Part shown: one piece after another, positions 7,662 through 37,788 of the stretch
Layout of the letters: the number at the start of each line of letters is the position of its first letter
Numbering within the stretch: position 1 is the stretch's first letter
Assembly: GCA_030528485.1 (NCBI GenBank)
Contig: JAUMYU010000014.1
Coordinates: forward strand, 1-41,048
Direction of reading: 5' to 3'
DNA length: 41,048 bases
Source: Comamonadaceae bacterium
GTDB taxonomy: Bacteria; Pseudomonadota; Gammaproteobacteria; Burkholderiales; Burkholderiaceae_C
The notes under the pieces: generated by a model
Databases searched by the model: none
What the model was told of the DNA's origin: nothing
Seen by the model: only the letters and a program-made list of their open reading frames with translations
Program-made: the position numbers and the translations under genes

Positions 7662-7732
7662 ACAAATCAAAAGAAAATCAATTCCAATACAATCATGCCA
7701 AAACAAGGATATTTTTTATCCTTTTGATTTGT
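7662..7732 (+). repeat. Intergenic palindromic repeat, copy A (best inverted repeats)
   Basis: A 71-bp AT-rich element with perfect 12-bp terminal inverted repeats ACAAATCAAAAG (7662-7673) and the complement at 7721-7732, with core ATCATGCCAAAACAAGG. It ends 11 bases from the dacB stop. The same layout recurs at 10256, 13329, 14885, 20995, 23456 and 37560. Confidence 0.85.
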
Positions 7733-7743
7733 AAAATTCCCTC

Positions 7744-9291
7744 TCAATCCTGCGCCACCCAATCGATCAAGGAATCAAAAGCCGCCCCCCGCACCGCCGC
7801 GGCATTGGGATGGTTCACAAACGCCACCAGCACATAGCGCCGCCCGCTATGGCCGTGCACGTAGCCTGCAATGGCGTTGACGTCGCGCAGCGAACCCGTC
7901 TTGATATGCGCCGAGCCGGAAGCCCGGCTGCGCCGCATCGTGCCATCCACTCCCACGGCGGGCATGGAGGAGAGCAGCTCCGGCATCACGGGCGAATGCC
8001 AGGCGTTTTGCAGCATGCGCCCCAGCGCGTGCGCCGTCACCCGCGCCGTGCGGCTCAGGCCCGAACCGTTGTCCATCACCAGGCTGGCGCGCGGATTGCC
8101 AATGCGCCGCTCCCACCACTGCAACACATTGGCCTGCGCATCACTTGGGCGCATATTGCGGCCCTGCCCGCCCACGCCCGCCAGCGCCAGGAACACGTGG
8201 TCGGCCATTACGTTGTTGCTGTATTTGTTCACATCGCGCACGATTTCGGGCAGCGACAGCGAAGCCTCCACAATCATCGGCCGCAGCGCCGCAGGCGTCA
8301 CGCCCGCATGCACGCGCCCCGTCAGGCTGCCGCCCAGCGCGCGCCACATGCCCTCCACCGCCTTGTTGGCAAACGCCTCCGGGTCGGGGTAAGCCACCGG
8401 CCAGTTCAGCTCGCCGCAAGCGGCCGGATAGCTGCCCGCAAAGCGCCAGCGATCTGGCTCGCTCACATCCAGGCGCAGCCCCTGGCGCCAACTGGCCGGG
8501 CAGGTTTTCGCGCTGGTGGCAAGCGCCACCGTCGCAGGCACCTCCAATTGCGCCATGGGCGGCGAGATTTGCACATGGGCCACACCCTTGCCCCTATCGG
8601 GCACAAACCGCATGACCACCGATTTGAAGTTGATGAGCAGGCCATCGGGCGCGGCGTTGTAGGGCCGCAGCGGCTCGTCATCGAACGCCGCCGCATCGTG
8701 CGGGGGCAGCTCGAACACGCTGCGATCAAGCACGATGTCGCCCACGATCACCTGCACGCCGCGCTGCTGCAACTGCCGCAGCAGCAGCCACAGCCGCTCC
8801 ATCACCAACTTCGGATCGCCCCCGCCCTGGATATAGACGTTGCCGCGCAAGCTGCCGTTGTCGATCACGCCATCGGTGTAAATGCGCGTGCGCCAGGTGT
8901 AAGCCGGGCCGAGCTGATCGAGCGCCGCATACGTCGTCACCAGCTTCATCGTCGAGGCCGGACTCATCAAATGATCGGCGCGATGCGTCACGCGCGGCTT
9001 GCCATCGCCATCGGCCGGGGCCACCCAAACCGACACCGCATCCTGCGGAATATTCGCCTTGGCCAGCGCAGCGGCAAAGCCCCTGGGCAACGCCGCCTGC
9101 GCCACAGCCGCCATTGAAGCCGTCACTGTTGGGGCCGTCGCCGCCTGCGCGCGGCCCTGCGCCAGCGCCGCCCAAGGCCAGGCGCAGGCCAGCAGCGCCA
9201 GCGCCGCCGCCACGGCTGGGGCCGCGCCCCGGCCCGCAAAAGGAATCACGCTACACTGCCCGGCCCATTTTTTTACAAACAACATACACAC
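7744..9291 (-). CDS. dacB: D-alanyl-D-alanine carboxypeptidase/endopeptidase (PBP4 type)
   Basis: Periplasmic penicillin-binding protein that trims and cleaves peptidoglycan cross-links. The 515-residue frame has an N-terminal signal sequence (AVAAALALLACAWPWAALAQ), then all three active-site motifs: STMK at residues 113-116 (nucleophile Ser113), SNN within KYSNNVMADH, and KTG within HIKTGSLRDVNAIAGYVHG. The long region between SxxK and SxN is the class C insert. The start is uncertain: a GTG at 9291, an ATG at 9285 and a further in-frame GTG close to the signal sequence are all possible, and no clear ribosome binding site decides. Divergent from tsaB. Confidence 0.93.
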   Translation of the reverse strand: MCMLFVKKWAGQCSVIPFAGRGAAPAVAAALALLACAWPWAALAQGRAQAATAPTVTASMAAVAQAALPRGFAAALAKANIPQDAVSVWVAPADGDGKPRVTHRADHLMSPASTMKLVTTYAALDQLGPAYTWRTRIYTDGVIDNGSLRGNVYIQGGGDPKLVMERLWLLLRQLQQRGVQVIVGDIVLDRSVFELPPHDAAAFDDEPLRPYNAAPDGLLINFKSVVMRFVPDRGKGVAHVQISPPMAQLEVPATVALATSAKTCPASWRQGLRLDVSEPDRWRFAGSYPAACGELNWPVAYPDPEAFANKAVEGMWRALGGSLTGRVHAGVTPAALRPMIVEASLSLPEIVRDVNKYSNNVMADHVFLALAGVGGQGRNMRPSDAQANVLQWWERRIGNPRASLVMDNGSGLSRTARVTAHALGRMLQNAWHSPVMPELLSSMPAVGVDGTMRRSRASGSAHIKTGSLRDVNAIAGYVHGHSGRRYVLVAFVNHPNAAAVRGAAFDSLIDWVAQD

Positions 9292-10255: not shown

Positions 10256-10328
10256 AATTTTTTTAAAGGAAAAACCGCTTCAATACCATCATGCCGAAAC
10301 AGGCGTATTATTTTTCCTATTGATTTAT
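10256..10328 (+). repeat. Intergenic palindromic repeat, copy B
   Basis: Same family as copy A: core TACCATCATGCCGAAACAGG and right end TTTTTCCTATTGATTTAT. The left inverted repeat is degenerate (TTTAAAGGAAAAA). It lies 49 bases after the tsaB stop, behind that gene's terminator. Confidence 0.8.
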
Positions 10329-10381
10329 AAAACACCAACCCGGTGGTGCCAACCACACGCTGCGGGCCAATGCGCGCCAAG

Positions 10382-13106: not shown

Positions 13107-13328
13107 CGGCAAGTACCCATCCCGGATGAGGATGGCGCGAATGACGAGGGGTGTTCGCCCCGGAAAATCAAAACAATTCGTATTATCGTGACGAAGCGAT
13201 TTTCAAAACGCCCCAACGCCTGTTTTCCGTTTCAGGAGAGCATTTAATTTCACAAACGTTGCCATAGTGCAACATGAAAACGGCTTGCCAGACAATGGCC
13301 TTACGCCTTTCCGGATACGCATTATTAT
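13107..13328. other. Long non-coding leader/intergenic stretch before the FetA-like gene
   Basis: No convincing gene. On the minus strand it holds an AT-rich tract (GATAATACGAATTGTTTTG, about 13171-13189). At 13313-13331 is a second weak Fur-like match with GATAATAATGC (minus strand) at its centre, touching repeat copy C. A 71-codon minus frame (13216-13001) crosses the hairpin and ends just before the receptor's ribosome binding site; it shows no recognisable features. Confidence 0.4.
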
Positions 13329-13396
13329 CAATCAAAGTAAAATTGATTTTAATACCATCATGCCAAAACAAGGTTGTTTTATTTCTTTTGATTTGG
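13329..13396 (+). repeat. Intergenic palindromic repeat, copy C
   Basis: Left end CAATCAAAGTAAAATT, core TACCATCATGCCAAAACAAGG, right end CTTTTGATTTGG. It lies four bases from the stop codon of the minus-strand CNNM-type gene, which has no other visible terminator close by. Confidence 0.85.
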
Positions 13397-13400
13397 AAAA

Positions 13401-14693
13401 TCAAGGTTCCGGCAAGCGCGTGACCAGCACCTGGTCGATGCGGTAGCTGTCCACGTCCATCACTTCAAACTTGTAGCCTGCCCAATTCACCGAATCGGTG
13501 CGCCGGGGGATGCGCCGCAACATGACCATGAGAAAGCCCGCCAGCGTGTCGTAATCCTCAAAGTGCGGGAACTCACCGATCTGCAACGCATGCACCACAT
13601 CCTCGATCGGGGTAATGCCGTCAATCAGCCAGGAGTTTTCATCGCGCTGCACGATGAGCTCCTCATGGTCGGGGCCGATCAAATCGCCCATCACGGTGCT
13701 CATCACATCATTGAGCGTGACCACGCCCACCACCAGGCTGTATTCGTTGACGACGACGGCGAAGTCCTCGCCAGCCTGGCGAAACTGCTCCAGCGTTTCC
13801 GTCAAAGTGAGGCGGTCGGGGATGACCAGCACCTTGTGCACCAGCTTGTCGTCCTGCAAGTTGATGGGCTGGTTGTTGAGCGCGCGCTGGAACAAGTCTT
13901 TCGCATCCACATAGCCAATAACGTGGTCGATATCCCGATCGCACACGGGATAGGTGGAATAAGGCTCCTCGGCAATGCGGGCGCGGATGAGCGCGTCCGT
14001 ATCGTTTTGCAGGAAAAACGCCACTCGGTCGCGCGTGGTCATGGCGCTGGTGACCAGGCGGTTATCCAGATCGAACAGGTTGGCAATCACGCGCTGCTCG
14101 CTCTGCGCCAGCTCGCCCGCTTGCGTGCCGGCCTCGGCCATCGCCAGGATGTCGTCAGAGGTGACGCGCTCATCGCGCTGCGTCGGCAAGCGCAGCAGCT
14201 TGAACAGCAGCGTGCTGGTGCTGCTGTAAAACCACACCAGAGGGCGCAGCACCGTCATGAAAAACTGCATGGGGCGGCACACGCGCATGGCGACTTTCTC
14301 CGGCTCCGCCATGCTCAGCCGCTTGGGCGCGATGTCGGCAAACAGAATGAACAGCGAGGTAATCAGCAGAAACGAGATCACAAACCCCACCGTCGCCGCC
14401 GTGGCCGGGGGTAGCCACCGATCCAGCGCCGTGGTGATGTAGGGGCTGAACGCGCCCTCCCCCACGATGCCGCCCAGCACGGCGATGGCGTTTTGCCCGA
14501 TCTGCACCACCGTGAAATAGTCGCCCGGCTGCTCTTGCATCAGCAGCACACGCTGCGCCTGCACGTTGCCGTCTGCAATAAGCTGGCGCAGGCGAATGCG
14601 GCGCGATGCGGCCAGGGCAATTTCCGCCATGGAAAAAAATCCGCCCGCAACAATCAGGGCGGCAATCAAAAGCAGGCTGTGCTGAACCGTCAT
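13401..14693 (-). CDS. CNNM/CBS-domain transporter (HlyC/CorC family, COG1253)
   Basis: A 430-residue inner-membrane protein with three parts. Residues 1-190 are a CNNM membrane domain (LLIAALIVAGGFFSMAEIALAASRRIRLRQL, three to four helices). A CBS pair follows, starting MTTRDRVAFFLQNDTDALIR and continuing with GYVDAKDLFQRAL and FAVVVNEYSLVVGVVTLNDV. A C-terminal CorC_HlyC domain ends it (DENSWLIDGITPIEDV, GFLMVMLRRIP). Relatives move or regulate Mg2+/Co2+; 'hemolysin' labels are historical. The start at 14693 places the first helix as in relatives; the frame continues to 14735 but that extension is basic and unlike the family. No clear Shine-Dalgarno. Confidence 0.88.
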   Translation of the reverse strand: MTVQHSLLLIAALIVAGGFFSMAEIALAASRRIRLRQLIADGNVQAQRVLLMQEQPGDYFTVVQIGQNAIAVLGGIVGEGAFSPYITTALDRWLPPATAATVGFVISFLLITSLFILFADIAPKRLSMAEPEKVAMRVCRPMQFFMTVLRPLVWFYSSTSTLLFKLLRLPTQRDERVTSDDILAMAEAGTQAGELAQSEQRVIANLFDLDNRLVTSAMTTRDRVAFFLQNDTDALIRARIAEEPYSTYPVCDRDIDHVIGYVDAKDLFQRALNNQPINLQDDKLVHKVLVIPDRLTLTETLEQFRQAGEDFAVVVNEYSLVVGVVTLNDVMSTVMGDLIGPDHEELIVQRDENSWLIDGITPIEDVVHALQIGEFPHFEDYDTLAGFLMVMLRRIPRRTDSVNWAGYKFEVMDVDSYRIDQVLVTRLPEP

Positions 14694-14884
14694 GGCACTG
14701 TGGGGCAGCCACACGCGCTTGCGGCGCGCCGGCATGCATCATCAAGTCGGTTTCGAGTGGAATAGGCCCACGATGATAAGAGGCTTACGCTGGAGACTCG
14801 CTGCGCAGGCTGACAAAGCCGCGGGAACAAACACCCGCCCGGCGACCTTGCCTCCGGCCATGCGCCCCTCAGGCGCCCCAATCT
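14694..14884. other. Intergenic stretch upstream of the CNNM gene
   Basis: No gene seen. Read on the minus strand it can form several short GC-rich hairpins (for example GCGCC-TGAGG-GGCGC and GCGGG-TGTTTGTT-CCCGC), so a structured leader is possible. I could not match it to a known riboswitch. Confidence 0.3.
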
Positions 14885-14954
14885 ACAAACCAAAAGAAAC
14901 AAATCAATGCCTTTTGGGCATATTGAAAGGAAACCGAATTTTCCTTAGGTTTGC
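14885..14954 (-). repeat. Intergenic palindromic repeat, copy G (degenerate)
   Basis: Minus-strand orientation. Ends ACAAACCAAAAG and GCAAACCTAAGGAAAA (as read inwards) preserve the inverted-repeat pattern; the core has lost several bases (CAATATGCCCAAAAGG). It lies ten bases from the rhlE stop codon. Confidence 0.65.
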
Positions 14955-14964
14955 AAATCCACCA

Positions 14965-16866
14965 TCACCCCCCATGCCGACGGCCGCCAATGGCCAGCCC
15001 GCTGTGCTGCAAGGGGGAAATGCCCCCTGGCCCGCGGTTCTTGTTGCGGTTGCCGCCTTTGTTGCGGCGGCCGCGCTCGGCCATGCTGTCCACACTGGTG
15101 CGCATGGGGTCTGGCTGTCGCCCGCTGTCGCCCCGGTACGCAGGCGCCAGCGAAATGCCCGTTTGGGTGCCCAGGTGGGCATCGGCGCGCAGCATGGGAT
15201 CGCGCGGGCGTTGCTCCCGCTGGCTGCCCCGCCCTGTTTTATTGGGTTTGGGCGGGCGTGCACCCTGCGGCTTGGCATATCCGGCCGATGGGCCGTGGCC
15301 GCGCGATGCGGCAGCTTTTTGGCCGCCCTCCGCCCCTGGCGCGCTATCGCTGCGTTGCGTGCGGCTGCGCCCCCCGGCGCGGAAACGGTTGCGGCGCTTC
15401 AGGGGCTTGCCGTCCACATCCAGCGGGCGCGGGCCGGGGTTGAATGCGCCTTCACCCTGTGGGGCCGAAGCCGATGCCACGTCGCCTTCCGTGGCGCCTC
15501 CCATTGCGGCAGCCCCTTGGGCACGCGCCGGCTTGTCCTGCTCTTGCGCTTTGTGCTCCGGCCCTTTCTTGCGGCTGCCCTGGGCCACGCGCTTGCTTTG
15601 GATGCGCTCCATCATCTCTTTGCGCGCGGCTTTGGCCGCCGCTTGCATGACTTCCCGGCTCGGCGGCTTGCCCGCCCCGCCCCACAGCGTCTGGCGGCCC
15701 ATGGCAATCGGCTCGGCCACTTCGTCTTCCGGCGGCGCGAACTCGGGCATCAGCTCCACGGGGATTTCCTGCTTGGTAAAGCGCTCAATCTCCATCATGA
15801 AGCCTTCTTCATCCAGGCACACCAGGCTGATGGCATGGCCTTCATTGCCCGCTCGGCCCGTGCGCCCGATGCGGTGCACGTAATCTTCCGGCACATTGGG
15901 GATTTCGTAATTCACCACGTGCGGCAGCTCATCGATATCGATGCCGCGCGCGGCAATATCCGTGGCCACCAGGACCCGCAAATCCCCCTCTTTGAAACTG
16001 GAAAGCGCCTGGGTGCGGGCCGATTGACTTTTATTGCCATGCAGGGCCATTGCGCTGACGCCGTTTCTATTCAGGAATTCAGCCACATGGTTGGCGCCAA
16101 ATTTGGTGCGCGTGAATACCAGCACCTGATTCCAGTTGCGCGAGGTGATGATGTGCAGCAAGGCCGCTTTTTTCTGCTGCCGGCCTACCGGGCAAATGAC
16201 TTGGCTGATGCGCTGCACCGTCGTATTGGGCGGGGTGACCTGGATGTGCTGCGGATTTTTCAGAAAGCTGTTGGCCAGCTTGCGGATTTCATCGCTGAAA
16301 GTCGCCGAAAACAGCAGCGATTGCTTGTCATCGGGCAGCACCGCCAAGACTTTGCGCACATCGTGGATAAAGCCCATATCCAGCATGCGATCGGCCTCGT
16401 CAAGCACGAGGTAGCGCACGGCGCCGAGATCCACATACCCTTGACTGTGCAAATCCAGCAGGCGGCCCGGCGTTGCCACAAGGATATCGACGCCTTTGGC
16501 AATGGCATTGATTTGTGGCGTCATGCCCACGCCGCCGAAAACCACAACGGAGGTCAGCGCCAAATGCTTGGCGTAGGCGGTGATGTTGTCGTTGATTTGC
16601 GCCGCCAGCTCCCGCGTGGGCGTAAGGATGAGCGCCCGCGGCGCCCGTCCCTCTTGCCGGCCTTGGTCAGCCTGGCTGAGCAATTGCAACAAAGGCAGCG
16701 TAAACGCGGCGGTTTTTCCCGTGCCGGTCTGCGCGCCAGCGAGCAAATCGTGACCGGCCAAAATCAACGGGATGGATTGAGCCTGGATGGGGGTGGGCTG
16801 AACGTAGCCCAGCACTGTCACGGCAGAAACGATGTCGGCCGACAGATTCAAGGATTCAAAAGTCAC
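14965..16866 (-). CDS. rhlE: DEAD-box RNA helicase, RhlE type
   Basis: ATP-dependent RNA unwinding in ribosome assembly and RNA decay. A 633-residue protein with all helicase motifs: Q motif ([11 protein letters not shown]), AQTGTGKT at 45-52, [40 protein letters not shown] and [10 protein letters not shown]. After about residue 390 comes a long basic, Gly/Arg/Lys-rich low-complexity tail (for example [42 protein letters not shown]) typical of RhlE RNA-binding tails. The start is a GTG at 16866; no strong ribosome binding site. The tail's high-GC reverse strand produces long spurious open frames. Confidence 0.94.
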
Positions 16867-26684: not shown

Positions 26685-27911
26685 TCAAGCAGCCTGAATC
26701 CGAGAAACTCTGTGCACGGGTTTTTCATCAATCGGCAAGTTCATCAAGGTGGCAAACACTCCCAACGCAATCGCAATATACCAGACCACATCGTAACTGC
26801 CCGTAGAGTCATAGAGGTAACCGCCCAGCCAAACCCCCAAAAAGCTGCCAATCTGATGGCTTAGAAAAACAATCCCCGCCAGCATCGACAAATGCCGCAC
26901 TCCAAACATCTGCGCCACAATCGCATTGGTGGGCGGCACTGTGGATAGCCAAAGCATCCCCATCACTGCCGAAAAAATATAAACGCTGGCCGAGCTGATC
27001 GGCACCATCAAAAATATGCCAATCACAACCGCGCGCGCACTGTAAATAAACGCCAAAATTTTACGGCGGGCAATCGTTTGCCCCAGCCAGCCCGCAATGT
27101 AAGACCCCACCACATTAAAAAGGCCAATCAAGGCCAGCGAATAAGTGGCCACATGCGCAGGCATTTGCATGTCTTTCAAATAGCTTGGCATATGCACCCC
27201 AATAAACACCACTTGAAAGCCGCATACAAAATATCCGGCCGTCAGCATCAAAAAACTGCGATATGTAAACGCCTCATGCAAAGCCTCTTTCACCGTTTGC
27301 TCCTGCCCACCGAAAAGTGCCGATGATTTTCTGGAATGCACACCCGGCTCACGCAATCCCAGCGCCAGGGGAATAATCGCCAAAACCACCATGGCCAAAA
27401 CCACCAGCGCATCTTGCCAGCCCAGCACATCAATCAGTTTTCCCTCTACAGGCAACATGAGAAACTGGCCAAAAGAACCTGCTGCAGCCGTCACGCCCAT
27501 CGCCCAGGATCGTTTCTCCACAGCAATTTGACGGCCGATCACCCCATAAATCACGGCATACGTCGTGCACGATTGCGCCAACCCCAACAGCACACCCGCG
27601 AACAGAGAAAAAAGCAAAGGAGTGGGCGCATAGGCCATCCCCCATAACCCCACCCCATAACTCAGCGCACCCACGCACAAAACACGAAAAGCGCCATAAC
27701 GATCTGCGGCCATACCAGCCAAAACGCCAAAAAATCCCCAAGCCAAATTCTGGATAGCCAGTGCAATGGAAAAATCCTGGCGCGACCAATCCATTTCCAT
27801 GGTGATAGGCAACAGCCACAAGCCAAAACCGTGACGCACCCCCATAGACAGAGTGACAACCATTGCGCCACAGAGCAAGACCTGTGTTATCGATAAACGT
27901 CGATCCATCAT
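26685..27911 (-). CDS. MFS transporter, monocarboxylate/oxalate-formate antiporter-like
   Basis: A 408-residue, 12-span major facilitator. The sequence MEMDWSRQDFSIALAIQNLAW, then GVLAGMAADRYGAFRVL (motif A region between spans 2 and 3), and the C-half RHLSMLAGIVFLSHQIGSFLG are typical of the MCT/OFA-like group (COG2223); the solute is not predictable. The start is 27911 (or the adjacent ATG at 27908). An upstream ATG at 27971 lies inside the preceding gene's terminator and is rejected. Followed within 20 bases by the small membrane protein and then the glutaredoxin-like gene. Confidence 0.82.
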   Translation of the reverse strand: MMDRRLSITQVLLCGAMVVTLSMGVRHGFGLWLLPITMEMDWSRQDFSIALAIQNLAWGFFGVLAGMAADRYGAFRVLCVGALSYGVGLWGMAYAPTPLLFSLFAGVLLGLAQSCTTYAVIYGVIGRQIAVEKRSWAMGVTAAAGSFGQFLMLPVEGKLIDVLGWQDALVVLAMVVLAIIPLALGLREPGVHSRKSSALFGGQEQTVKEALHEAFTYRSFLMLTAGYFVCGFQVVFIGVHMPSYLKDMQMPAHVATYSLALIGLFNVVGSYIAGWLGQTIARRKILAFIYSARAVVIGIFLMVPISSASVYIFSAVMGMLWLSTVPPTNAIVAQMFGVRHLSMLAGIVFLSHQIGSFLGVWLGGYLYDSTGSYDVVWYIAIALGVFATLMNLPIDEKPVHRVSRIQAA

Positions 27912-27937
27912 AATTCCCAAACTACTCTTTCCCAATG

Positions 27938-27969
27938 AAAAAAGCTGCTCGTTTTTCAACAAGCAGCTC
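27938..27969 (-). terminator. Terminator of the Ig-like lipoprotein gene
   Basis: Minus strand: AGCTGCT, loop, AGCAGCT running into TTTTTT; 22 bases past the lipoprotein stop and only 27 bases ahead of the MFS start. Confidence 0.75.
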
Positions 27970-27989
27970 ATTTCAGAAAATTAAGAGCT

Positions 27990-29753
27990 TTATTTTAACT
28001 CGCAGTCCTCAATGCCATCGGGTTGATCAGGCTCAGTAACTCTGACGCGAATCACTTGATTTTTTGTTATGCCTGCTGAAGTAACTCGAATTGTCAGATC
28101 ATACATCTTGTCTTCATATTTTGTTGGCGTTACCTCAGGAGGCTTGCCTTGTTCTCCCGGCTTGCTTTGCCCCTTGGTGCAAGCGAGCAACCAGCGCTTA
28201 ATATCTGTACCTTTCGCGGAAAGCTTCGCTTTTTCCTTGTCAAAAGTCAAGAATTCATGAATTTTTCTTTCTTCCGAAGACTCTGGAACGGAATCCCATG
28301 TGTAACGACCATCACCACCTGCTCCCGTGAACAGATACACAAAATCAGACCCCACTACGGCTGGCGACTTCAACTCACACACATCAGTCCCGTTCCCACA
28401 TTCCGCAATGTGCGGCGTGAAAGGCGACTCCTCAATGGAAATAACTGCCGATCCCGTTGCAACCTGGTTACTACGCCACGGCGCATATTTATTGGTGCTA
28501 TCCACCACAGCCACCATGAAAGTGTGATCTTTCACCAAGCGAGTAGGCACGCCACTGATCACGCCATTGGGTTTCAAAGTCAAACCATCCGGCAACGTGC
28601 TGCCATTAATCAGACGCCAGTTATGAGGCGGCAAACCAGATCCGTTCAGGGTAAGCGCCCCCATGAATGGCTGCATGTAATACCCTTTCAATTTCTGATC
28701 TGGAAGAATCGAAAGCGGCGGAATGAAAGAAGGCGGCGGCTCATGCAACGCATACACCACGATGAGATTGCTGACAGGCTCCACAATGCCATTGGACACA
28801 TTGTTATCCGCGCGGTCTGCAATAAACTCAATCAGAATCGGGCCTTCATATTGGCCACTCGTCACGGAGAAAGTCGCCAAACCGTTGATTGTAGAAACAG
28901 CAATCGTCGAACCTGTACCCCCCGAAACGGTTGGACCGACGCCCCTCAATTTCGCCACTCGGCTGGCATCGTTGTAACTGCCCACAATACGCGCATAAAG
29001 GTTATTCACCCCAGCAGGCGGATTAGCAACAGGCTGATCCAGGTCATTCCAGACTTTGACATTCAGCAGCAATTGCGTATTGTTTTGCGAACCCTGGGTA
29101 TGCAAATACCCTACATCACCCGTACTCGTGCTCTCGATATAGTTCACCGAGGGGCTTGTGTTATTTGCCTCCCTGGGGCCTACACGGATCTTCGTCGCCG
29201 CTGTACGCACCTGATTATCCCGAGGGTCGGTATACGAGCACGAAACCGTCGCTTCGCCTGCTGTTGCATCTCTTCCATGGAAATGGAAAGTCGCTATCCC
29301 TCCAAACGAGGGCAGCGCAATCGAGCGGAAAGCACCCGGCACCTTCACTTTCTCCCCATTCCCAACATCCACCTCAACCTGGTGCTCCTCCTTGCCATCC
29401 AGGTAATAAAGCGTTCCCACCTCTATCCCTGCCCCATCCAAGGAGCAGGAAAAAACATTTTCGTCCCCGGAGGATGGAATAAAGCGACCGTCCACCTTCG
29501 CTTCAACCGTCAAAGACGTCGTATAGGGAGAGTTCCTTCCTCTTCCACTGTAGTTCCAAATCACACCCGGCTGGAGTTTTGCCAGATTCAACGGCAGCTC
29601 GGACTTTTCTGCACGCAGAAAAATCTCCGTCTTGGATGTATTCCCGCCGCCTGGGCCACTTCCCCCGCTTCCTCCGCCGCCGCCGCAGGCTGCCATAAGC
29701 GCAACTGCCGGTAATGCAGCAAACATCCAATGAGAAAATACCTTTTTTTTCAC
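27990..29753 (-). CDS. Large lipoprotein with putative Ig-like domain, downstream of pilQ
   Basis: A 587-residue exported lipoprotein: signal sequence, lipobox LMAAC with Cys23, then a Gly-rich tether (CGGGGGSGGSGPGGG). The C-terminal half contains LPDGLTLKPNGVISGVPTRL, the signature of a putative Ig/cadherin-like (He_PIG) repeat. Several scattered Cys pairs (FSCSLDGAG, VSCSYTDP, AECGNGTDVCELK, LACTKGQ, EDCELK) suggest disulfides in the periplasm or on the surface. The start is a GTG at 29753 with AAGGAG upstream. It follows pilQ by 31 bases on the same strand, so it is probably the last gene of the pil operon; a link to type IV pilus or secretin function is inference. Confidence 0.75.
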   Translation of the reverse strand: MKKKVFSHWMFAALPAVALMAACGGGGGSGGSGPGGGNTSKTEIFLRAEKSELPLNLAKLQPGVIWNYSGRGRNSPYTTSLTVEAKVDGRFIPSSGDENVFSCSLDGAGIEVGTLYYLDGKEEHQVEVDVGNGEKVKVPGAFRSIALPSFGGIATFHFHGRDATAGEATVSCSYTDPRDNQVRTAATKIRVGPREANNTSPSVNYIESTSTGDVGYLHTQGSQNNTQLLLNVKVWNDLDQPVANPPAGVNNLYARIVGSYNDASRVAKLRGVGPTVSGGTGSTIAVSTINGLATFSVTSGQYEGPILIEFIADRADNNVSNGIVEPVSNLIVVYALHEPPPSFIPPLSILPDQKLKGYYMQPFMGALTLNGSGLPPHNWRLINGSTLPDGLTLKPNGVISGVPTRLVKDHTFMVAVVDSTNKYAPWRSNQVATGSAVISIEESPFTPHIAECGNGTDVCELKSPAVVGSDFVYLFTGAGGDGRYTWDSVPESSEERKIHEFLTFDKEKAKLSAKGTDIKRWLLACTKGQSKPGEQGKPPEVTPTKYEDKMYDLTIRVTSAGITKNQVIRVRVTEPDQPDGIEDCELK

Positions 29754-29784
29754 CTTCTTACTCCTTAATTTATTCCATGCTGAC

Positions 29785-31893
29785 TTATCGGCGCATCGAA
29801 TTCTGTTCTGTCACAATTTTAGGCGTAATAAACACAAGCAACTCGCTTTTGCTTGCACTACGTTCCTTGCGCTTAAACAAATTCCCTGCAATTGGCAAGT
29901 CTCCCAAGAAAGGCACTTTATTTTCCAAAACTGTTTCATCCAGTTCAAAAATACCGCCAATAACGACTGTCCCGCCATTTTCAACCAGGACTTCCGTATT
30001 CACTCTCCTGGTATCAATAGCACCTTGACCGTGCGCAGAGAGATTATCTTTTTTCACCAATAATTTCAGTATGACGTTACCCTCAGGCGTAATCTGAGGC
30101 GTCACTTCCAGACTGAGGACAGCTTTTCTGAACTCGACTGTTGTACCGCCACTGGGAGAGGAGGTAGCATACGGAAGCTCCGTCCCCTGCTCTATGTAAG
30201 CCTTTACCTGATCGCTGGTTACTACTCGTGGGCTGGAAATCACCCGCCCTTCACCAGTAGATTCCAAAGCCGAAATCTCCAAATTTAAGAACCTGTTAGC
30301 TGCCGAGTTGAAAACGGAAAGCGCAAAGCTCGCCGCACTGGTAGAGCCGATAGCGTTCGCACCGAGATCAAAGAACTGTCCCGCTGCCGTCGTGCCATTT
30401 GCAGCGCCAGAGCCTACGAGCACATTCCCATAGGTGCCACCAAAAACAGCCCGGTTGCCGCCTCCCAAATGATAACCACCATCGCCTCCGCGCTCAGCTC
30501 GCTGATCTGACATGCCCAGCCGAACCCCGAGATTTCTCCCGAAGCTGTCATTGGCCTGGACAATACGCGCCTCAATCAGCACTTGCCTTACAGGAATATC
30601 CCAATCAGCAACGAGTTTCACCACTTCCTCCAATTTGGAGGGCGTATCCGTCACAAAAAGCTGATTGGTGCGTGGCTCCGCAATCGCGGATCCGCGCTCC
30701 GTCAAAAACCGGGCATTTTGAGAACCCTTGTTTCCTTGATCTTGCGTTTGTGTCAACTGCTCTGCGATTTTCTCTGCTCTCGCATAGTTAAGCTGAAAGC
30801 TTTGGGTTCGCAGCGGTTCCAATTTCTCCAAAGCCAAACGCGCCTCGTGATCTTTTTGTCTTCTTTCGTTTAACTCATCTTTAGGAGCAACCCACAAAAC
30901 ATTCCCATTTTTTTCGTAACCCAACTCCTTGGAATTCAAAATAACATCCAGGGCCTGATCCCAAGGAACATCTTGCAAACGAAGTGTCAGCGATCCGTTT
31001 ACGGAGTCCGCAACAACAATATTGAAATTGGTAAAATCCGCTATTACCGAAAGAAGCGATCTGATATCAACATTTTGAAAGTTCAAAGAAAGCTTTTCAC
31101 CAGAAAAGCCAACTCCGGGCGTCAACTTCCCTGGATCAGGAATAACTTTATGCACTTCCAGGACATATTGATTACCGACCTGGTAAGAGCTTTGACTCCA
31201 TTCACCCTCAACTTCAATTTCAACAACAGTCGATTTATTCGTTTGTTTTGGCCGAATATATTTTACAGGCGTACCAAAATCAGCCACATCCAAATAATTT
31301 TTAAAACTATCCGAGAGCGATACATTGGGTATTTCAAGAATAATTCTTTTACCTTCTTGGCGGACATCGACACCCACGCTATCGTTGGGCAAGTCCAACA
31401 GTACCCGCCCAACGCCATTCATGCCACGCCGGAAATCGATTTTTTCTATTGCGGCCGCTCGTGATGGAGAGCTTGACTTCACAGCTCCCGCTGAGTAATG
31501 GACAGACGGCGCATCACCGAGCTGCACCGTCACTATATTTCCAGACTTATGGATTTGATAAGAGCCGATTTCCCGCAAACTCAAGACAACCCTAGAGCGA
31601 TCCCCGGCCTCAACCGCATTAATCGATCGCAAATTCCCTTGATTTACCTCAACATGCTTGCGACCAGCAACAACCCCAACCCCGGGAAAATCCAAGGAAA
31701 TTCGTGCAGGGGACTGCACCAGAAATGCCACGGGATCAAAATCAATTGGCTCATTCAGCTCAATTTGAACGACCTCGCGCCCATTCTGGTGCATTCCATT
31801 GATAGAAACAATATCTGCTGCCCATGAAGCAACACTAAAACACGAAAAAAATCCCAAAAATATGGAATTCGCAAGCAAAGAACGCTGTTTCAT
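29785..31893 (-). CDS. pilQ: Type IV pilus secretin PilQ
   Basis: Outer-membrane secretin through which type IV pili are extruded. 702 residues with signal peptide (ending SVASWAAD). Two AMIN domains follow (about 30-115 and 150-235; VVQIELNEPIDFDPVAFLVQ, RVLLDLPNDSVGVDVRQEG). Next is an STN/N0 domain (LSLNFQNVDIRSLLSVIADF, QDVPWDQALDVILNSKEL) and an N1/NolW region (RTQSFQLNYARAEKIAEQL). The secretin core has RQVLIEARIVQANDSFGRNL and ends VPFLGDLPIAGNLFKRKE and ELLVFITPKIV. The ATG at 31893 has AAGGAG upstream. GC is markedly lower than in the housekeeping genes around. Confidence 0.96.
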   Translation of the reverse strand: MKQRSLLANSIFLGFFSCFSVASWAADIVSINGMHQNGREVVQIELNEPIDFDPVAFLVQSPARISLDFPGVGVVAGRKHVEVNQGNLRSINAVEAGDRSRVVLSLREIGSYQIHKSGNIVTVQLGDAPSVHYSAGAVKSSSPSRAAAIEKIDFRRGMNGVGRVLLDLPNDSVGVDVRQEGKRIILEIPNVSLSDSFKNYLDVADFGTPVKYIRPKQTNKSTVVEIEVEGEWSQSSYQVGNQYVLEVHKVIPDPGKLTPGVGFSGEKLSLNFQNVDIRSLLSVIADFTNFNIVVADSVNGSLTLRLQDVPWDQALDVILNSKELGYEKNGNVLWVAPKDELNERRQKDHEARLALEKLEPLRTQSFQLNYARAEKIAEQLTQTQDQGNKGSQNARFLTERGSAIAEPRTNQLFVTDTPSKLEEVVKLVADWDIPVRQVLIEARIVQANDSFGRNLGVRLGMSDQRAERGGDGGYHLGGGNRAVFGGTYGNVLVGSGAANGTTAAGQFFDLGANAIGSTSAASFALSVFNSAANRFLNLEISALESTGEGRVISSPRVVTSDQVKAYIEQGTELPYATSSPSGGTTVEFRKAVLSLEVTPQITPEGNVILKLLVKKDNLSAHGQGAIDTRRVNTEVLVENGGTVVIGGIFELDETVLENKVPFLGDLPIAGNLFKRKERSASKSELLVFITPKIVTEQNSMRR

Positions 31894-31906
31894 CTTGTAA
31901 TCTCCT

Positions 31907-32434
31907 TCACTCTTGCAGCTCAAGCACCGTCGAACGTTCCACCCATTCACCAGTGGCATCTTGCACCACTTCCGTTAAATCAATGCGAGTCTCCAAAATT
32001 TTCTCAATCTTCCCAAAATTTTGACCAATGTAATTTCCCGCCACTACTTGATAAAGATGCCTATCCACTTCAAGCACGGCCGTTGGGCGACCCGATTTCT
32101 CCAAAAATCCTACCATCTTTATGGTATCAATTGGATAGGCCTCCAAGGGCTCCCTGCGCCGCTTATCATGGATATCCATTAAGTTAGCGCCCCCTTTCTT
32201 GGCATCCGCAAATACCCTGGCAAGCTTTTCGAAGGCGAAAGGATCCTCTGCACTCCCCCTCTCATACGAAAGCGGATAAAAAACACCGGGTTCTTGCAAT
32301 GGCGCAATTTTGGGAATCGCCTTGCTTTTTTCCTGAGCCATCCAAGCTGCAACTTCGTCCTGCCGGGAACTCATGCAACCGAGCAAATTGGCACACACTC
32401 CAAAGAGCACAAAAAATCTAATTCCATTTCTCAT
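31907..32434 (-). CDS. pilP: Type IV pilus assembly lipoprotein PilP
   Basis: Inner-membrane-anchored lipoprotein that joins the PilNO alignment subcomplex to PilQ. 175 residues, lipobox NLLGC with Cys20, a Pro-rich periplasmic linker, and the PilP beta domain (PIDTIKMVGFLEKSGRPTAV, VAGNYIGQNFGKIEKI). The start overlaps the pilO stop (ATGA), and pilQ begins 13 bases later. Confidence 0.94.
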   Translation of the reverse strand: MRNGIRFFVLFGVCANLLGCMSSRQDEVAAWMAQEKSKAIPKIAPLQEPGVFYPLSYERGSAEDPFAFEKLARVFADAKKGGANLMDIHDKRRREPLEAYPIDTIKMVGFLEKSGRPTAVLEVDRHLYQVVAGNYIGQNFGKIEKILETRIDLTEVVQDATGEWVERSTVLELQE

Positions 32435-33075
32435 TTTTTGCCTCCTTTATTATTTTTCGCCTTGGCCTGTTCAATTTGCTCATCGGGACTCAAGTACCGA
32501 TACGTCTTCGCCACCGCCTTCATCGTAAGACGGTCATTGGAAATATCCTTAGAATCTTTAGTCACATGCATATTACCTATGGTAACGATACGAGACAAGT
32601 GCGCAATATCTGAAGCGAACTCACCAATCGCATCATAAGTCCCTGTGACGATAATATCAATCGGCTGCTCACCATAATAGTCCTTAATTTGAAACGCTCC
32701 AGGCTTAAACAACTCAAAATGCAAACCGCGCCCAATGCCAGCCTGGTTGATATCGGATAGCAATGCATCCATTTCCGCCTTGTTGGGGAGCTGCTTTTCC
32801 AACAAGCTGACGTACTGGATGGCTTGTTCTTTTTGCTTCTTCAATGCCTCCAAATTAATCGCTTTTTTATAGTCACGAGAGAATTCCGACCTTAATGCTG
32901 CTTCCTTTGCTTGCGCAGCCTCCAATTCCTCCTTAAAAGAAGTGAGGTAAAAAAACCAGGCAAGTACAGCAACAGCGATAGCAATCGCAATGAACAAGAC
33001 AATTCTTGGCAAAATAGGCCATAGCCACGGATCCCGACCACTGGCTTGTCGAAATTGAGATGCCCAATCTTTCAT
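32431..33075 (-). CDS. pilO: Type IV pilus inner-membrane protein PilO
   Basis: Bitopic protein pairing with PilN in the alignment subcomplex. 214 residues: cytoplasmic N-tail, membrane span at about 24-44 (RIVLFIAIAIAVAVLAWFFYL), coiled coil (EELEAAQAKEAALRSEF) and ferredoxin-like periplasmic domain (LLSDINQAGIGRGLHFELF, TGTYDAIGEFASDIAHL). GGAGGG before the ATG at 33075 decides the start over the TTG at 33090. Confidence 0.94.
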   Translation of the reverse strand: MKDWASQFRQASGRDPWLWPILPRIVLFIAIAIAVAVLAWFFYLTSFKEELEAAQAKEAALRSEFSRDYKKAINLEALKKQKEQAIQYVSLLEKQLPNKAEMDALLSDINQAGIGRGLHFELFKPGAFQIKDYYGEQPIDIIVTGTYDAIGEFASDIAHLSRIVTIGNMHVTKDSKDISNDRLTMKAVAKTYRYLSPDEQIEQAKAKNNKGGKK

Positions 33076-33090
33076 ACGCCCTCCTGCCAA

Positions 33091-33687
33091 TTATTTGATA
33101 GGCACATTGTTATCATCTTCCTCTACCCCCGCCTTATCCAAACGGAAGTTCATTGCATATCCATAAACTTGCCTTTTCCTGCCTCCACCCAAATCGATAT
33201 CGGTCGCTTTTGTCTCAATGAGTTGCGCCCTGGAATCCCACGGCATATTCTTATCAATATTTCTCAGCAAATCCGAAACCGTTTGGTTGGATTGCGCCAT
33301 GCCCTGCAAGGCGACCTGTTTATCCGTCTTGTTTAAAGACGTGACATAGGAGCCATTGGGAACCTCCTTGATGACATGATTCATCAAGTCAACAGGCAAA
33401 TTCCGCTCCGACTGCAAATTCTCGACCGCTTGCTGCCGCGCTTTCAGGGCGGCAATTTCCGCTTCAATATTATTAACCTCTTTAATTTGCACTTTCAGGC
33501 GCGCATTCTCCTGCTCAATCATTCGATTGGCACTTTCCTGATCGGAAATCAAGACCTGAAAATAGGAATAAATAACACCTGCAATCCCCAGCCCGGCAAG
33601 CACAGAAAGGGCCGCGGACAGCATGAACTTTTCTTTTCGCGCTTTCTTCGCCGCCTCACGGTGCGGCAACAAATTTATCCTGATCAT
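33091..33687 (-). CDS. pilN: Type IV pilus inner-membrane protein PilN
   Basis: 198 residues. The N-terminal INLLPHR motif (4-10) docks into PilM; a membrane span at about 22-43 and a coiled coil (NRMIEQENARLKVQIKEVNN) lead to the periplasmic domain. The ATG overlaps the pilM stop by four bases; pilO starts 15 bases downstream. Confidence 0.95.
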   Translation of the reverse strand: MIRINLLPHREAAKKARKEKFMLSAALSVLAGLGIAGVIYSYFQVLISDQESANRMIEQENARLKVQIKEVNNIEAEIAALKARQQAVENLQSERNLPVDLMNHVIKEVPNGSYVTSLNKTDKQVALQGMAQSNQTVSDLLRNIDKNMPWDSRAQLIETKATDIDLGGGRKRQVYGYAMNFRLDKAGVEEDDNNVPIK

Positions 33688-34763
33688 TCCTCAAACCTCC
33701 GCAATGCAAGGCCGCAAGCCGTCAAGTAACTCGGCGCTTCTCGCATGACGGATTTCATGCGAACCCCTCCTCCCATTTCCATCCCTTCAAATGGGCTTGC
33801 TATTTGACATGCCGTTTCAGTAGCCTGCGTGACGGCAGCGGCCAAGCCGTTAACTATAGCCGTACCACCTGCCAACAATATGCGATCAACTGAATTATAT
33901 GGAGAGCTGGTAAAGAAAAATTGCAACGCCCGGCTAATCTCCTGCGTCAGACTATTGACGTAAGGCCGCAGCACGGCATTTGCATAGTCTTCCGGCATTT
34001 CACCTGCACGCTTTTTATTCTCCGCCTCTTCAAAGGAAATTCCGTAATGCCTTGCAATGGATTGCGTCAATTGCGCCCCGCCAAAAGACTGATCGCGCTC
34101 AAAAAGAATCTCCTCTCCTTGAAGAATCATCAAAGTGCTATTCGATGCGCCAATTTCAAACAAAGCCACAATGGGCTGCTCTGACGTTCTGGGCCACGCC
34201 TTGGCCAAACGCATTACCGCCAACCTTGAAGCAAAAGACTCGACATCAAGAATGACCGCTTTCAGGCCAGCAGCTTCTGCCAAGCCCTGCCGATCCTCAA
34301 CTTTATCTTTTCGTGAAGCGGCAATTAATATTTCAACATCATCGCTTGAATTTTTTGATGGGCCAATTTCACAAAAATCCAGGCTGACCTCATCCAAAGA
34401 AAACGGAATATAGTGGCTCGCTTCCGATTCAACCTGAATCTCCAATTCCTCTTCGGAAAGGCCGGCAGGCAATATGATTTTTCGTGTAATAACAGCCGAA
34501 GGAGGCAAAGCCAACGCAACCTGCTTCGTACGCGAACCACTTTTTTTCACGACCCTTCGCAAGGCATCTGCCACCTCATCGAAATTTTCGATGTTTCCCT
34601 CATTCACCCACCCCTTTTCCAAGCGCTCAATAGCCGCCCTTTCAAGGGTCAATTTGCCATCGCGTGCACTGCTAAGCTCAACAAGCTTGATACTGGAAGC
34701 GCTGATGTCAATACCTACCAATGGCGTTTGCCTTGGGGCAAACAAAGATCTCGCGGAGACCAC
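33684..34763 (-). CDS. pilM: Type IV pilus ATPase-fold protein PilM
   Basis: Actin-like cytoplasmic protein at the base of the alignment complex; it binds PilN's N-terminal motif. Features: VGIDISASSIKLVELS near the start (phosphate-1 loop), VALFEIGASNSTLMIL, and RILLAGGTAIVNGLAAAV. I place the start at the GTG at 34763 (MVSARSLFAPRQTPL), because it gives the family's usual 359-residue length and has AAAGG six bases ahead. A longer frame extends to 34820 through other GTG and ATG codons. First gene of pilMNOPQ, divergent from mrcA, a common arrangement in beta- and gammaproteobacteria. Confidence 0.92.
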   Translation of the reverse strand: MVSARSLFAPRQTPLVGIDISASSIKLVELSSARDGKLTLERAAIERLEKGWVNEGNIENFDEVADALRRVVKKSGSRTKQVALALPPSAVITRKIILPAGLSEEELEIQVESEASHYIPFSLDEVSLDFCEIGPSKNSSDDVEILIAASRKDKVEDRQGLAEAAGLKAVILDVESFASRLAVMRLAKAWPRTSEQPIVALFEIGASNSTLMILQGEEILFERDQSFGGAQLTQSIARHYGISFEEAENKKRAGEMPEDYANAVLRPYVNSLTQEISRALQFFFTSSPYNSVDRILLAGGTAIVNGLAAAVTQATETACQIASPFEGMEMGGGVRMKSVMREAPSYLTACGLALRRFEE

Positions 34764-35013
34764 ATCCAACCTTTCTTGCACTGTTAAATAGCGCAACAAA
34801 ATGTACAACTTGACACGCATCCTAGCAGCATGTTTTTTTGCTGAAAAGAGGAAGCATGCGCGCTTATTTCGCTCCTGTTGTCAAAAGCACACGTGATTGT
34901 CATTATTCTGTCTGATGCACAATGTGCTGTATCCTCAGCTCCCCTAAGTTTTTGTATTTTCATAACAAATTTTGACAGTTGCCCGACCGCGGGCGGCGGT
35001 GCATTGCAAATCC

Positions 35014-37455
35014 ATGGTTTCTCAGCGCAACAGCAGTGGGCGTAAGCGCCCACCCAACATGGCGAACAACACATCTGCTGACAGTAGGGGAGACCACTCT
35101 CAGCCGCGCAAGCGAAGTTCCTTGATTGTCCGCGTTTTTGGCTGGTGTTTAGGCTTGATGGTTGCTGGCGCCGTGGCGGCCGTGGCCGTTGCAGTTGTGG
35201 TAGTCGCCACGATCTACCCCAAGCTGCCAGACGTTTCTGATCTGGCCGACTATCGCCCCAAGCTGCCATTGCGGGTCTATTCGGCAGAAGGCGCTTTGAT
35301 TGGTGAGTTTGGCGAGGAGCGCCGCAAGCTCACTCCCATCGAAGACATCCCCGATGTCATGAAAAATGCCATTCTGGCAGCAGAGGACGCGCGTTTTTTC
35401 CAGCATAACGGCATTGACTACCGAGGCATCATCCGGGCCGCCTTGGCCAATTTGCGCGATTTGCGCAGCCAGGGGGCCTCGACCATCTCCATGCAAGTCG
35501 CCCGCAATATGTACCTTTCGCCTGAGCGGACGTTTACGCGCAAGCTCTACGAGGTGCTGCTGACGATGAAGCTGGAGCACATGCTCTCCAAGAACGAAAT
35601 CCTGGAGATTTACATGAACCAGATCTTCCTGGGCAACCGCGCTTATGGCTTTTCCGCAGCGGCAGAAACGTACTTTGGCAAGCCGCTGAAAGAGGTCAGC
35701 ATCGCGGAAGCGGCCATGCTGGCCGGCCTGCCTGTTGCACCATCCGAGTTCAATCCCATCCGCCGCCCTGAGCGCGCCCGCATTCGCCAACTGCACATCA
35801 TCAACCGCATGGTGGACAACGGCTTTATCACCGCAGATGAAGCCGTGCAGGCGCGCAAAGAAGCCAAGGCGATGAACGTGCGCCGCACGCTGGACAACTT
35901 CCCCGTTCGTGCGGAGTACGTCGCTGAAATGGTGCGCAAATCCATGTTCGAACGCTATGGCGAGGAGGCCTACACCCGCGGCCTGAACGTTTACACCACC
36001 ATCCAGCTCTCGGACCAGGAGGCCGCCTATAGAGCCTTGCGCACGGGCATCATGAATTACGAGAAACGGCAGCATTACCGCGGCCCGGAAAATTTCGTCA
36101 ACCTGCCTGATGACCCGGAAAAACGCGAAGCGGTGATTGACAACGCCCTCTCCGCCCACCCCGACAACGGGGAAATTTTTTCTGCCGTGGTTCTGAAAGC
36201 CAACCGCCAAAAAGTGGAAGTCGCGCGCGCGGATGGCTCCCGTTTGGAAATCACGGGCCTGGGGCTGCGCGCCGTTCAATCCGGCCTGGCCGAAAAAGCC
36301 CCCGCCAACATCAAGATTCGCCCTGGCGCCATCGTGCGCATCATGCAAACCGCCAAGGGCGAATGGGAGATTACCCAACTGCCCGAAGTGGAAGGCGCTT
36401 TCGTCGCGATGGAGCCTGCCACTGGCGCCATTCGCGCACTGGTGGGCGGCTTCGATTTCAACAACCGCAAGTTCAACCACGTCACCCAAGCCTGGCGCCA
36501 GCCCGGTTCGGCTTTCAAGCCCTTCATCTATTCGGCGGCGCTGGAAAAAGGCTATATGCCCGCCACCCTCATTGCCGACACGCCCATGTACTTTGGCAGC
36601 TCCGTCACGGGCGGCAAGCCCTGGGAGCCGCGCAATTACGATCGCCGCTTTGAAGGCCCGATCACCATGCGCACGGCCCTGGCCCGCTCACGCAATATTC
36701 CGACGGTGCGGCTGATTCAAACCGTTGGCGCCAAAAACGCCCAGCAGTGGGTGACCCGTTTTGGCTTCGACGCCCAGCGCGTTCAGCCTGTGCTGCCCAT
36801 GGCCCTGGGCGCTGTCGAGGTCACCCCGCTGCAAATGGTGGCGGCTTACAGCATTTTTGCCAATGGCGGGCACAGGGTGGAACCGTGGCTGATTGAACGG
36901 GTGACCGACCACCGCGGGCGCGTGCTCTCGCACACCCAGCCCAGCCCTCTTGACGAGACGCCCCAGGCCATCGACCCGCGCAATGCCTTCATCACCAGCA
37001 GCCTGTTGCAGGAAGTCACCCGCTCTGGCACGGGTGCGAAAGCGCGCGCCGCGCTCAAACGCCCCGATATTTACGGCAAGACGGGCACTACCAACGATGC
37101 CCACGATGCCTGGTTTGCGGGCTTTCAGCCCTCCATGGCCGCTGTCGCGTGGGTGGGCTATGACAACCCGCGCGACCTGGGCAGCAAAGAAACAGGCGGC
37201 GGCTTGGCATTGCCCATTTGGGTGCAATTCATGCAACACGCCCTCAAAGACACGCCTGTCAGTGAACTCAAAGCCCCCAAAGGCGTTTCGCGCGAAGGGA
37301 GCGATTGGGCGTACAACGAGTTCACCCGCGGCCGTGGCGTAGCCAGCCTTGGCATGGAAAGCTATTACGCAGAATCCAGCGCCAGCTCTGCGGGCAGCCA
37401 TACCCCGCCCAGCAGTGCAGAGCGCGCCCAGATTCTGGATTTGTTCCAAAACTGA
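35014..37455 (+). CDS. mrcA: Penicillin-binding protein 1A (bifunctional class A)
   Basis: Inner-membrane peptidoglycan polymerase. About 813 residues: cytoplasmic basic tail, one membrane span (LGLMVAGAVAAVAVAVVVVA), a glycosyltransferase domain with EDARFFQHNGIDYRGIIRA and GASTISMQVARNMYL, then a transpeptidase domain. The latter has PGSAFKPFIYSAAL (SxxK nucleophile), SRN in ALARSRNIPTV and YGKTGTTNDAHDAWF (KTG). An OB-like insertion lies between the two domains. The start is unsettled: ATG 35014 or ATG 35059 (798 residues), with a 7-bp hairpin (35036-35053) between them; a TTG at 34972 is less likely. Divergent from pilM, as in many relatives. Confidence 0.93.
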   Translation: MVSQRNSSGRKRPPNMANNTSADSRGDHSQPRKRSSLIVRVFGWCLGLMVAGAVAAVAVAVVVVATIYPKLPDVSDLADYRPKLPLRVYSAEGALIGEFGEERRKLTPIEDIPDVMKNAILAAEDARFFQHNGIDYRGIIRAALANLRDLRSQGASTISMQVARNMYLSPERTFTRKLYEVLLTMKLEHMLSKNEILEIYMNQIFLGNRAYGFSAAAETYFGKPLKEVSIAEAAMLAGLPVAPSEFNPIRRPERARIRQLHIINRMVDNGFITADEAVQARKEAKAMNVRRTLDNFPVRAEYVAEMVRKSMFERYGEEAYTRGLNVYTTIQLSDQEAAYRALRTGIMNYEKRQHYRGPENFVNLPDDPEKREAVIDNALSAHPDNGEIFSAVVLKANRQKVEVARADGSRLEITGLGLRAVQSGLAEKAPANIKIRPGAIVRIMQTAKGEWEITQLPEVEGAFVAMEPATGAIRALVGGFDFNNRKFNHVTQAWRQPGSAFKPFIYSAALEKGYMPATLIADTPMYFGSSVTGGKPWEPRNYDRRFEGPITMRTALARSRNIPTVRLIQTVGAKNAQQWVTRFGFDAQRVQPVLPMALGAVEVTPLQMVAAYSIFANGGHRVEPWLIERVTDHRGRVLSHTQPSPLDETPQAIDPRNAFITSSLLQEVTRSGTGAKARAALKRPDIYGKTGTTNDAHDAWFAGFQPSMAAVAWVGYDNPRDLGSKETGGGLALPIWVQFMQHALKDTPVSELKAPKGVSREGSDWAYNEFTRGRGVASLGMESYYAESSASSAGSHTPPSSAERAQILDLFQN

Positions 37456-37788
37456 GCAAAGCGCCTGTCCACGATCTCCACGCGACGGGCCATGAAGCGG
37501 ATGGGGCGCGCCCGGCGGCGTTGCGAGCGCACGGCACGCCCCAAAGCACTTAAAAAAATACAAATCAAAAAGAAACAAAATAACCTTATTTCGGCAATCC
37601 TGTATTGAAGTGATTTTTATTTTGATATAAAAATAATACACACAAGCGATGCGCAATGCAGCGTCGCGGCCAGGTACAGCTTTCAGGTTTGATGGTACAA
37701 AACGCCACCCAAGCTGGCGGCAACCTGCCTTGCTTCTTGCCCCCTCGGCCTTTGCCCAGGGGGCCTTCTTCCGAACCTTCTTCACACC
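37456..37788. other. Intergenic stretch between mrcA and cphA
   Basis: No gene seen. It contains repeat copy F in its middle and a GC-rich hairpin GCCCCCT / AGGGGGC (37739-37764) that ends 24 bases before the cphA start. The first 100 bases are GC-rich with no recognised structure; no clear mrcA terminator was found. Confidence 0.45.
37560..37629 (-). repeat. Intergenic palindromic repeat, copy F (inverted orientation)
   Basis: Minus-strand orientation: right-type end ACAAATCAAAAAGAAAC at 37560, core (minus strand) CAATACAGGATTGCCGAAAT, left-type end TATATCAAAATAAAAATCAC. It lies 104 bases after the mrcA stop. Confidence 0.8.

Follow-up and report, generated by a model that had tools for sequence, protein, structure and literature searches.

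Dispersed repeats in bacterial genomes are often classed as relics of miniature inverted-repeat transposable elements (MITEs), and several described families can be set beside the element examined here, an AT-rich intergenic repeat of about 77 bp present in seven copies in a 41,048-nucleotide stretch of a Comamonadaceae bacterium (contig JAUMYU010000014.1 of assembly GCA_030528485.1; the window). In 1993, Boccard and Prentki reportedly placed RIB-type elements at the 3' ends of transcription units. ERIC sequences are imperfect palindromes of about 127 bp with divergent copies, and the Correia elements (NEMIS) of Neisseria lie in intergenic DNA. In published descriptions, RIB/RIP (BIME-1) elements of Escherichia coli carry a central IHF site (PMC2817692), ERIC is a MITE-type intergenic repeat with inverted ends that reaches 30 to 711 copies per genome, with extra sites in some E. 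coli strains (PMC10969869), Correia elements are IS630-derived MITEs (PMC2817692) with evidence of mobilisation (PMC2649163), and BRE is a dispersed, usually intergenic repeat of 75-91 bp in Betaproteobacteria including Comamonadaceae, GC-rich (69% on average in Bordetella), with at most 29 copies per genome and a variable tandem number (PMC3110155).

The element in the window resembled RIB/RIP (BIME-1) in having two inverted arms around a central module and in lying at gene 3' ends, but it had no GTAG-headed REP arms, no enrichment of IHF sites and no RAYT match. It shared with ERIC the intergenic placement, inverted ends and divergent copies, and differed from it in sequence, bacterial class, length (about 77 bp) and the lack of any empty site found here. 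The Correia elements are likewise intergenic but have evidence of mobilisation, whereas no mobility was seen in our comparison of two sister genomes. BRE matched in size range, intergenic placement and overlapping host group, and was set apart by its description, as the present family was AT-rich, had at least 150 copies per genome and was usually solitary (of 207 copies in the sister genome, 7 pairs stood in tandem within 60 bp). Functionally the element is closest to RIB/BIME elements, and membership in no tested family was established; the family was not met in the literature searched, although such a limited search cannot establish that it is unpublished. The reading that we favour, and hold with about even confidence, is that the element is a double-stranded DNA site, maintained vertically and by selection at the 3' ends of genes, which works like RIB/BIME elements. 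It builds on properties established by computation, namely position behind gene ends, occurrence in either orientation, orthologous conservation, constraint on arms and core, and rigid spacing.

Architecture, copy number and vertical maintenance

The genome of the window (G000; 2.36 Mb in 132 contigs, 80.5% complete, the window being contig C94) was compared with that of a close relative (G009), 95% identical over a 4.6-kb test stretch and 91-95% identical over five blocks of the window. The element consisted of three modules, a left arm close to CAAATCAAARGAAAA, an asymmetric core close to ATGCCRAAACAAGG, and a right arm close to TTTCCTTTTGATTTGTAAAA that is inverted relative to the left one. 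The terminal inverted repeats of the original prediction were present and imperfect: the perfect 12-bp repeat belonged to copy A, the first in the window, and RNAalifold found 0 consensus base pairs over 51 copies. The similarity extended beyond A/T runs, as the CC of the core GCC was invariant in 55/55 aligned G000 copies and its G was kept in 52/55. These 55 copies were star-like paralogues, with a mean pairwise identity of 62% and a maximum of 82% over 97 columns including flanks; the best G000 paralogue of copy A was 90% identical over 88 bases.

Chance similarity between spacers did not account for the family. Copy A alone matched at 40/40 scored places in G000 (300 first-look candidates), and the profile R1, built from 51 aligned G000 copies (4 of the 55, under 40 bits, were left out), matched at 150/150 scored places in G000 (E-values 1e-20 to 2e-14; 1465 first-look candidates) and at 150/150 scored candidates in G009. 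Each genome therefore held at least 150 copies. At E 1e-3, G009 yielded 207 copies over 835 kb of DNA, most of which had been picked for holding copies. The densities of the window (7 copies in 41 kb) and of its G009 counterpart (8 in 40 kb) suggest several hundred copies per genome in both.

The spacing of the modules was rigid. When arm and core profiles were searched separately (211 core matches), the right arm lay 24-25 bp from the core in 149 of the 150 cores having a right-arm match, and the left arm 28-30 bp away in 147 of the 149 having a left-arm match. A search with looser thresholds and shorter modules gave 252 core-plus-right matches, with the left arm at 31-33 bp in 197 and no left arm in 36; among the 216 located left arms, 12 were at 41-43 bp and 7 elsewhere (stricter thresholds: 5/186 at 41-43 bp). 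Eleven members of this +10 class were examined, two of them forming an orthologous pair, and its offset of about one helical turn suggested helical phasing of the modules. Such +10-bp left-spacer variants include L232:12340-12480, L240:11070-11190, L177:16864, L172:12494 and L168:16043. Tandems in the same orientation, 15-16 bp apart, were seen at L164:1788-1956, L170:5751-5917, L171:10047-10216 and L240:19839-19999.

Copies were considered testable for orthology when both flanks fell within sampled orthologous DNA, which was the case for 41 of 112 G000 copies and 40 of 110 G009 copies. All 41 sites from G000 were filled in G009, in the same orientation, and all 40 from G009 were filled in G000. 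The proposal of an old, vertically maintained, intergenic family was accordingly supported, while the clean empty sites expected of a mobile MITE were absent from the 41 and 40 testable comparisons. An active MITE was rejected on these grounds and because the copies were not near identical. The element flanks were rich in A or T without a fixed boundary, and no target-site duplication was shown, with no empty site available for comparison. No clean empty site was found at orthologous 3' ends of other congeners, because synteny and intergenic DNA differ there. Arm matches outside detected elements numbered 19 in the 1.18 Mb sampled (reversed-sequence control, 8); seven of these places were read, and most were variant elements. 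No autonomous parent was recognised around the 19 matches in the sampled DNA, seven places having been read, and no transposase was recognised by eye among the genes that lie between two inverted arms, 3.6 kb from each other, in L232. Beside one orthologous element, around the copy at 6235, L173:4839-6313 of G009 had about 1.4 kb extra compared to G000 (gap 1473).

The family was narrowly distributed. Matches were found in 5 of 60 relatives at E 1e-3, G000 included, and in 5 of the 10 genomes of the genus at E 1e-4, where G005, G007 and G008 carried only 2, 1 and 1 copies; the eight congeners besides G000 and G009 held 0-2 each. Across 399 genomes of the host family (141 genera), only this genus matched at E 1e-5 (3 genomes), in a scan whose tighter filters and limit of 11 scored candidates for each genome could miss weak or rare copies. 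The two strong G005 copies lay in segments 98%/88% and 91%/94% identical to G000/G009, whereas the relA- and prlC-type genes of G005 matched at 82%, compared to 88-98% in the element-bearing segments. This is a sign that the G005 copies came along in recent exchange between congeners, the direction of which is inferred. The shared segments were on G005:C18 (L042, L046), and within L042 the match to G007 was 98% on the right and 79% on the left; the context of the single G008 copy was not clearly transferred. A weak right-half match in seemingly the same gene context, at G007:C6:314782 (L043) and G005:C12:69847 (L142), is possibly a distant relative of the element. No match was found in plasmids and phages searched with copy A in distant mode, or in viral contigs searched with one exact pattern. 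Among the matches listed, the RelA-type protein of the window was 60-68% identical (best segment) to 80 named loci, mostly from Comamonadaceae genera such as Acidovorax, Simplicispira, Comamonas and Polaromonas, and we take the host to belong to this family. A scan of these 80 loci returned 0 copies at E 0.05. Two element-rich genomes and congeners nearly free of the element offer a ready comparison.

Position at gene ends and constraint on arms and core

The genomic context was determined in 42 G009 stretches for the 182 of 207 copies scoring at least 30 bits (25 under 30 were left out), using gene calls from an in-house open reading frame (ORF) scorer from which low-scoring spurious ORFs had been filtered. 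Between codirectional genes lay 107 copies, between convergent genes 50 and between divergent genes 14; 4 more fell inside predicted ORFs and 7 at edges. Where the flanking genes were codirectional, the upstream stop was a median of 14 bp away, and 76 of the 107 copies were within 30 bp of it, compared to 38.2 expected under uniform placement. Among gaps of at least 80 bp, a copy was held by 43 of 78 convergent, 98 of 267 codirectional and only 14 of 83 divergent ones (divergent vs convergent, p = 5e-7). The placement was therefore RIB-like, although it concerns gene ends and not mapped transcription units. Orientation relative to the genes was 56:51, with equal scores both ways. That an asymmetric core is kept equally in both transcriptional orientations favours recognition as DNA, and together with the fixed spacing it is most simply read as a double-stranded DNA site.

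For each copy, two sister species show which letters are held. Constraint was measured over 77 columns in 41 G000-G009 ortholog pairs, with expected substitutions computed from intergenic base-and-neighbour rates. Columns better conserved among paralogues tended to have lower substitution rates, with 0.342 for the least conserved and 0.029 for the most conserved (Spearman -0.76). Columns conserved at 0.9 or more had 78 substitutions vs 169.5 expected at the local intergenic rate (Poisson p = 3e-15), with 14 vs 61.0 in columns at 0.97 or more and 64 vs 108.5 in those at 0.90-0.97, whereas columns under 0.5 had 83 vs 31.0. The most conserved columns were slower than both the intergenic yardstick and the fourfold synonymous one (divergence 0.093; 979/10,528 sites in 52 genes), and variable arm columns (0.12-0.14) were near the intergenic rate. 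Indel events per substitution were also fewer in elements (0.048) than in intergenic DNA (0.178; p = 8e-8). Arm and core positions are thus constrained, probably by selection. The divergence between copies, from which an old family had been suggested, does not reflect age alone: it was concentrated in certain columns while others were held, a pattern not predicted for a neutral MITE relic. In a strand test leaving out copies under 20 bits and contig C2, variable columns were asymmetric (C, 0.259 in one orientation vs 0.167 in the other), whereas conserved columns showed no asymmetry for C (0.134 vs 0.130; p = 0.73), which further supports selection. If the constraint over these 41 loci is valid family-wide, it would mean that a function acting across the genome arose within a single genus.

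Evidence weighed against a DNA site and alternative explanations

Several observations weigh against a selected DNA site. The column classes were derived from the 55 G000 copies, and the 41 pairs include some of these same copies. Whole-element identity (0.878) equalled that of neighbouring intergenic DNA (0.881; coding, 0.963). The fast evolution of variable interior columns, at 2-3 times the rate of intergenic or fourfold sites, accounts for this equality: variable spacer and core columns reached 0.28-0.30, vs 0.123 for intergenic DNA and the fourfold value given above. A DNA-site model leaves the fast interior unaccounted for, local hypermutation or exchange between copies being possible sources. 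Substitutions were clustered (136 adjacent vs 86.9 expected), while compensating paired indels inside elements were at the null level (7/29 same-length pairs vs 6.2). In the test for gene conversion, paralogue centres were slightly closer than column shuffles (7.47 vs 8.47; 8.73 vs 9.93), as were the arms, and no two centres in the set differed at fewer than 4 of 34 columns. Conserved columns showed a strand difference for G (0.098 vs 0.115 by replication strand; p = 0.046). The +10 class may be one subfamily by descent, so phasing goes no further than a suggestion. Pairing of the outer arms was better within copies than between swapped copies (-8.96 vs -8.23 kcal/mol in 101 G000 copies; -7.74 vs -6.78 kcal/mol in 93 G009 copies; standard deviation 0.24 in each), a difference of 3-4 standard deviations that in both genomes put the real pairing below the lowest of 60 shuffles, so some hairpin potential is kept. 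Gene ends with an unmasked copy also scored as terminator-like about as often as ends without one under another energy rule (at or below -8: 0.49 of 89 vs 0.40 of 96 in G000; 0.42 of 107 vs 0.44 of 115 in G009), and some copies may therefore form terminator-like hairpins. Variable interior positions thus differed between the two relatives at three times the fourfold rate, the copy at 23452-23530 of the window, compared with L146, being one example.

The pairing of the arms and the unmasked terminator scores would be compatible with an element acting in RNA, with an arm hairpin at the mRNA 3' end serving, owing to the inverted arms, in either direction as a terminator, a stabilising site or a processing site, an explanation that we regard as somewhat unlikely. 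The short distance behind upstream stops would suit it, and with copies masked, GC-hairpin-plus-T terminators were less frequent at codirectional ends with a copy (19/109) than at those without (50/148; p = 0.004), although this comparison is weakened by the lack of room in short gaps, which leaves less space for both features, and by orthologous ends being counted twice. At convergent ends the difference was not significant (32/89 vs 30/61; p = 0.13). A hairpin kept as RNA also fits poorly with the absence of consensus pairs over 51 copies and of clear arm covariation among the 45 highest-scoring column pairs by mutual information; whole-half pairing was significant in G009 only, and the inner hairpin was not above shuffles in either genome. 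Moreover, the asymmetric core was kept at equal scores in a 56:51 orientation ratio, and a 40-nt loop needs no rigid spacing.

The other alternatives were less probable still. A MITE burst long past, whose copies are now neutral and whose conserved columns reflect no more than the ancestral sequence, would account for the inverted ends, the intergenic placement and the confinement of high copy numbers to two sister species, and the avoidance of promoters could reflect purifying selection against insertions. Once the species had separated, however, neutral copies should have decayed evenly across columns, whereas columns here differed and some were held, which disfavours neutral debris. The depletion of indels, the lack of an empty site in 41 and 40 comparisons, and the arm matches outside elements in the 1.18 Mb sampled (19 vs 8 in the control, mostly variant elements where read) point the same way and make neutral remains an unlikely account. 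A replication-polar signal oriented by the fork, as with Chi or KOPS, drew on the 150 top G009 copies, whose plus strand was the C-rich strand in 83 of 114 cases on clear-skew contigs (p = 1e-6; contig-sign permutation over 11 contigs, p = 0.0016), not counting unsampled contigs and those below the skew limit, such as C2 and C4, and on neighbouring copies sharing orientation (77/127 vs 63.1 expected in G009; 57/82 vs 41.3 in G000). The bias, however, depended on score, falling from 9/11 through 43/62, 34/56 and 17/38 to a reversed 7/23 in the weakest copies (110/190 over all bins), and the skew of 20-kb stretches alone was not significantly correlated with orientation. As strand-asymmetric mutation at variable columns raises scores in one orientation, score ascertainment can explain much of the bias; a polar signal, which appears very unlikely, is not claimed, and a residual bias may persist. 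That these copies are true REP/BIME elements dispersed by a RAYT transposase is scarcely credible. Abundant extragenic palindromes at gene ends recall it, but the copies were not near identical, a GT(A/G)G head followed by a short palindrome was not in the element consensus, and Y1_Tnp (PF01797, RAYT) had no match in G009 or in the incomplete assembly of G000, though it was found in 5 of the 8 other congeners. The IHF consensus WATCAANNNNTTR was present in 1 of 182 copies, with 2.4 expected.

Under the preferred reading of a selected double-stranded DNA site, a putative lineage-specific DNA-binding protein would grip the arms and core on one helix face, and the resulting complexes would mark the ends of transcription units. 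By analogy with RIB/BIME elements, these marks would probably act as boundaries to transcription from both sides, or as topological anchors for supercoiling or the nucleoid. If a protein does bind, such a mark of 3' ends or of the nucleoid would be of a new kind. A MITE burst in the ancestor shared by the two species may have given rise to the family. A more specific proposal, which we hold only tentatively, is that of a lineage-specific, genome-wide network of several hundred operators of about 77 bp for some architectural or roadblock protein, helically phased, which would have taken over 3'-end marking in one small clade, with interior spacers rewritten faster than synonymous sites and with arms, core and spacing preserved.

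The seven copies in the window and their surroundings

All seven copies of the original prediction were recovered at their places and strands, and a profile built from them matched exactly these seven in the window, with bit scores of 36-66; each had an orthologue in G009. No Rfam covariance model matched the window at gathering score. Copy A (7662-7737, plus strand) ended 6 bp from the stop of a minus-strand gene (7744-9285). Copy B (10256-10332, plus) occupied a convergent gap between genes ending at 10206 (plus) and 10416 (minus); its left arm was degenerate, the profile limits being 10265-10332 and the left end lying at about 10256. Copy C (13325-13401, plus) abutted the stop of paeA (13401-14735, minus; NF052568), and copy D (14881-14957, minus) lay 7 bp behind the stop of a rhlE-like helicase gene (14965-16866, minus). 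The relA-type gene was flanked by two copies, with copy E (20992-21070, plus) before it, 22 bp behind the gene at 18912-20969 (plus), and copy F (23452-23530, plus) 10 bp behind its stop (23441), before an oligopeptidase-A-type gene. Copy G (37559-37629, minus) was 103 bp behind the stop of a PBP1A-type gene (37455) and before a cyanophycin synthetase gene.

Between copies F and G, four minus-strand genes at 26685-34820 (MFS transporter, hypothetical protein, secretin and pilM) had a G+C content of 47-51%, compared to 66-69% in three other genes measured, and were perhaps acquired or slowly ameliorated.

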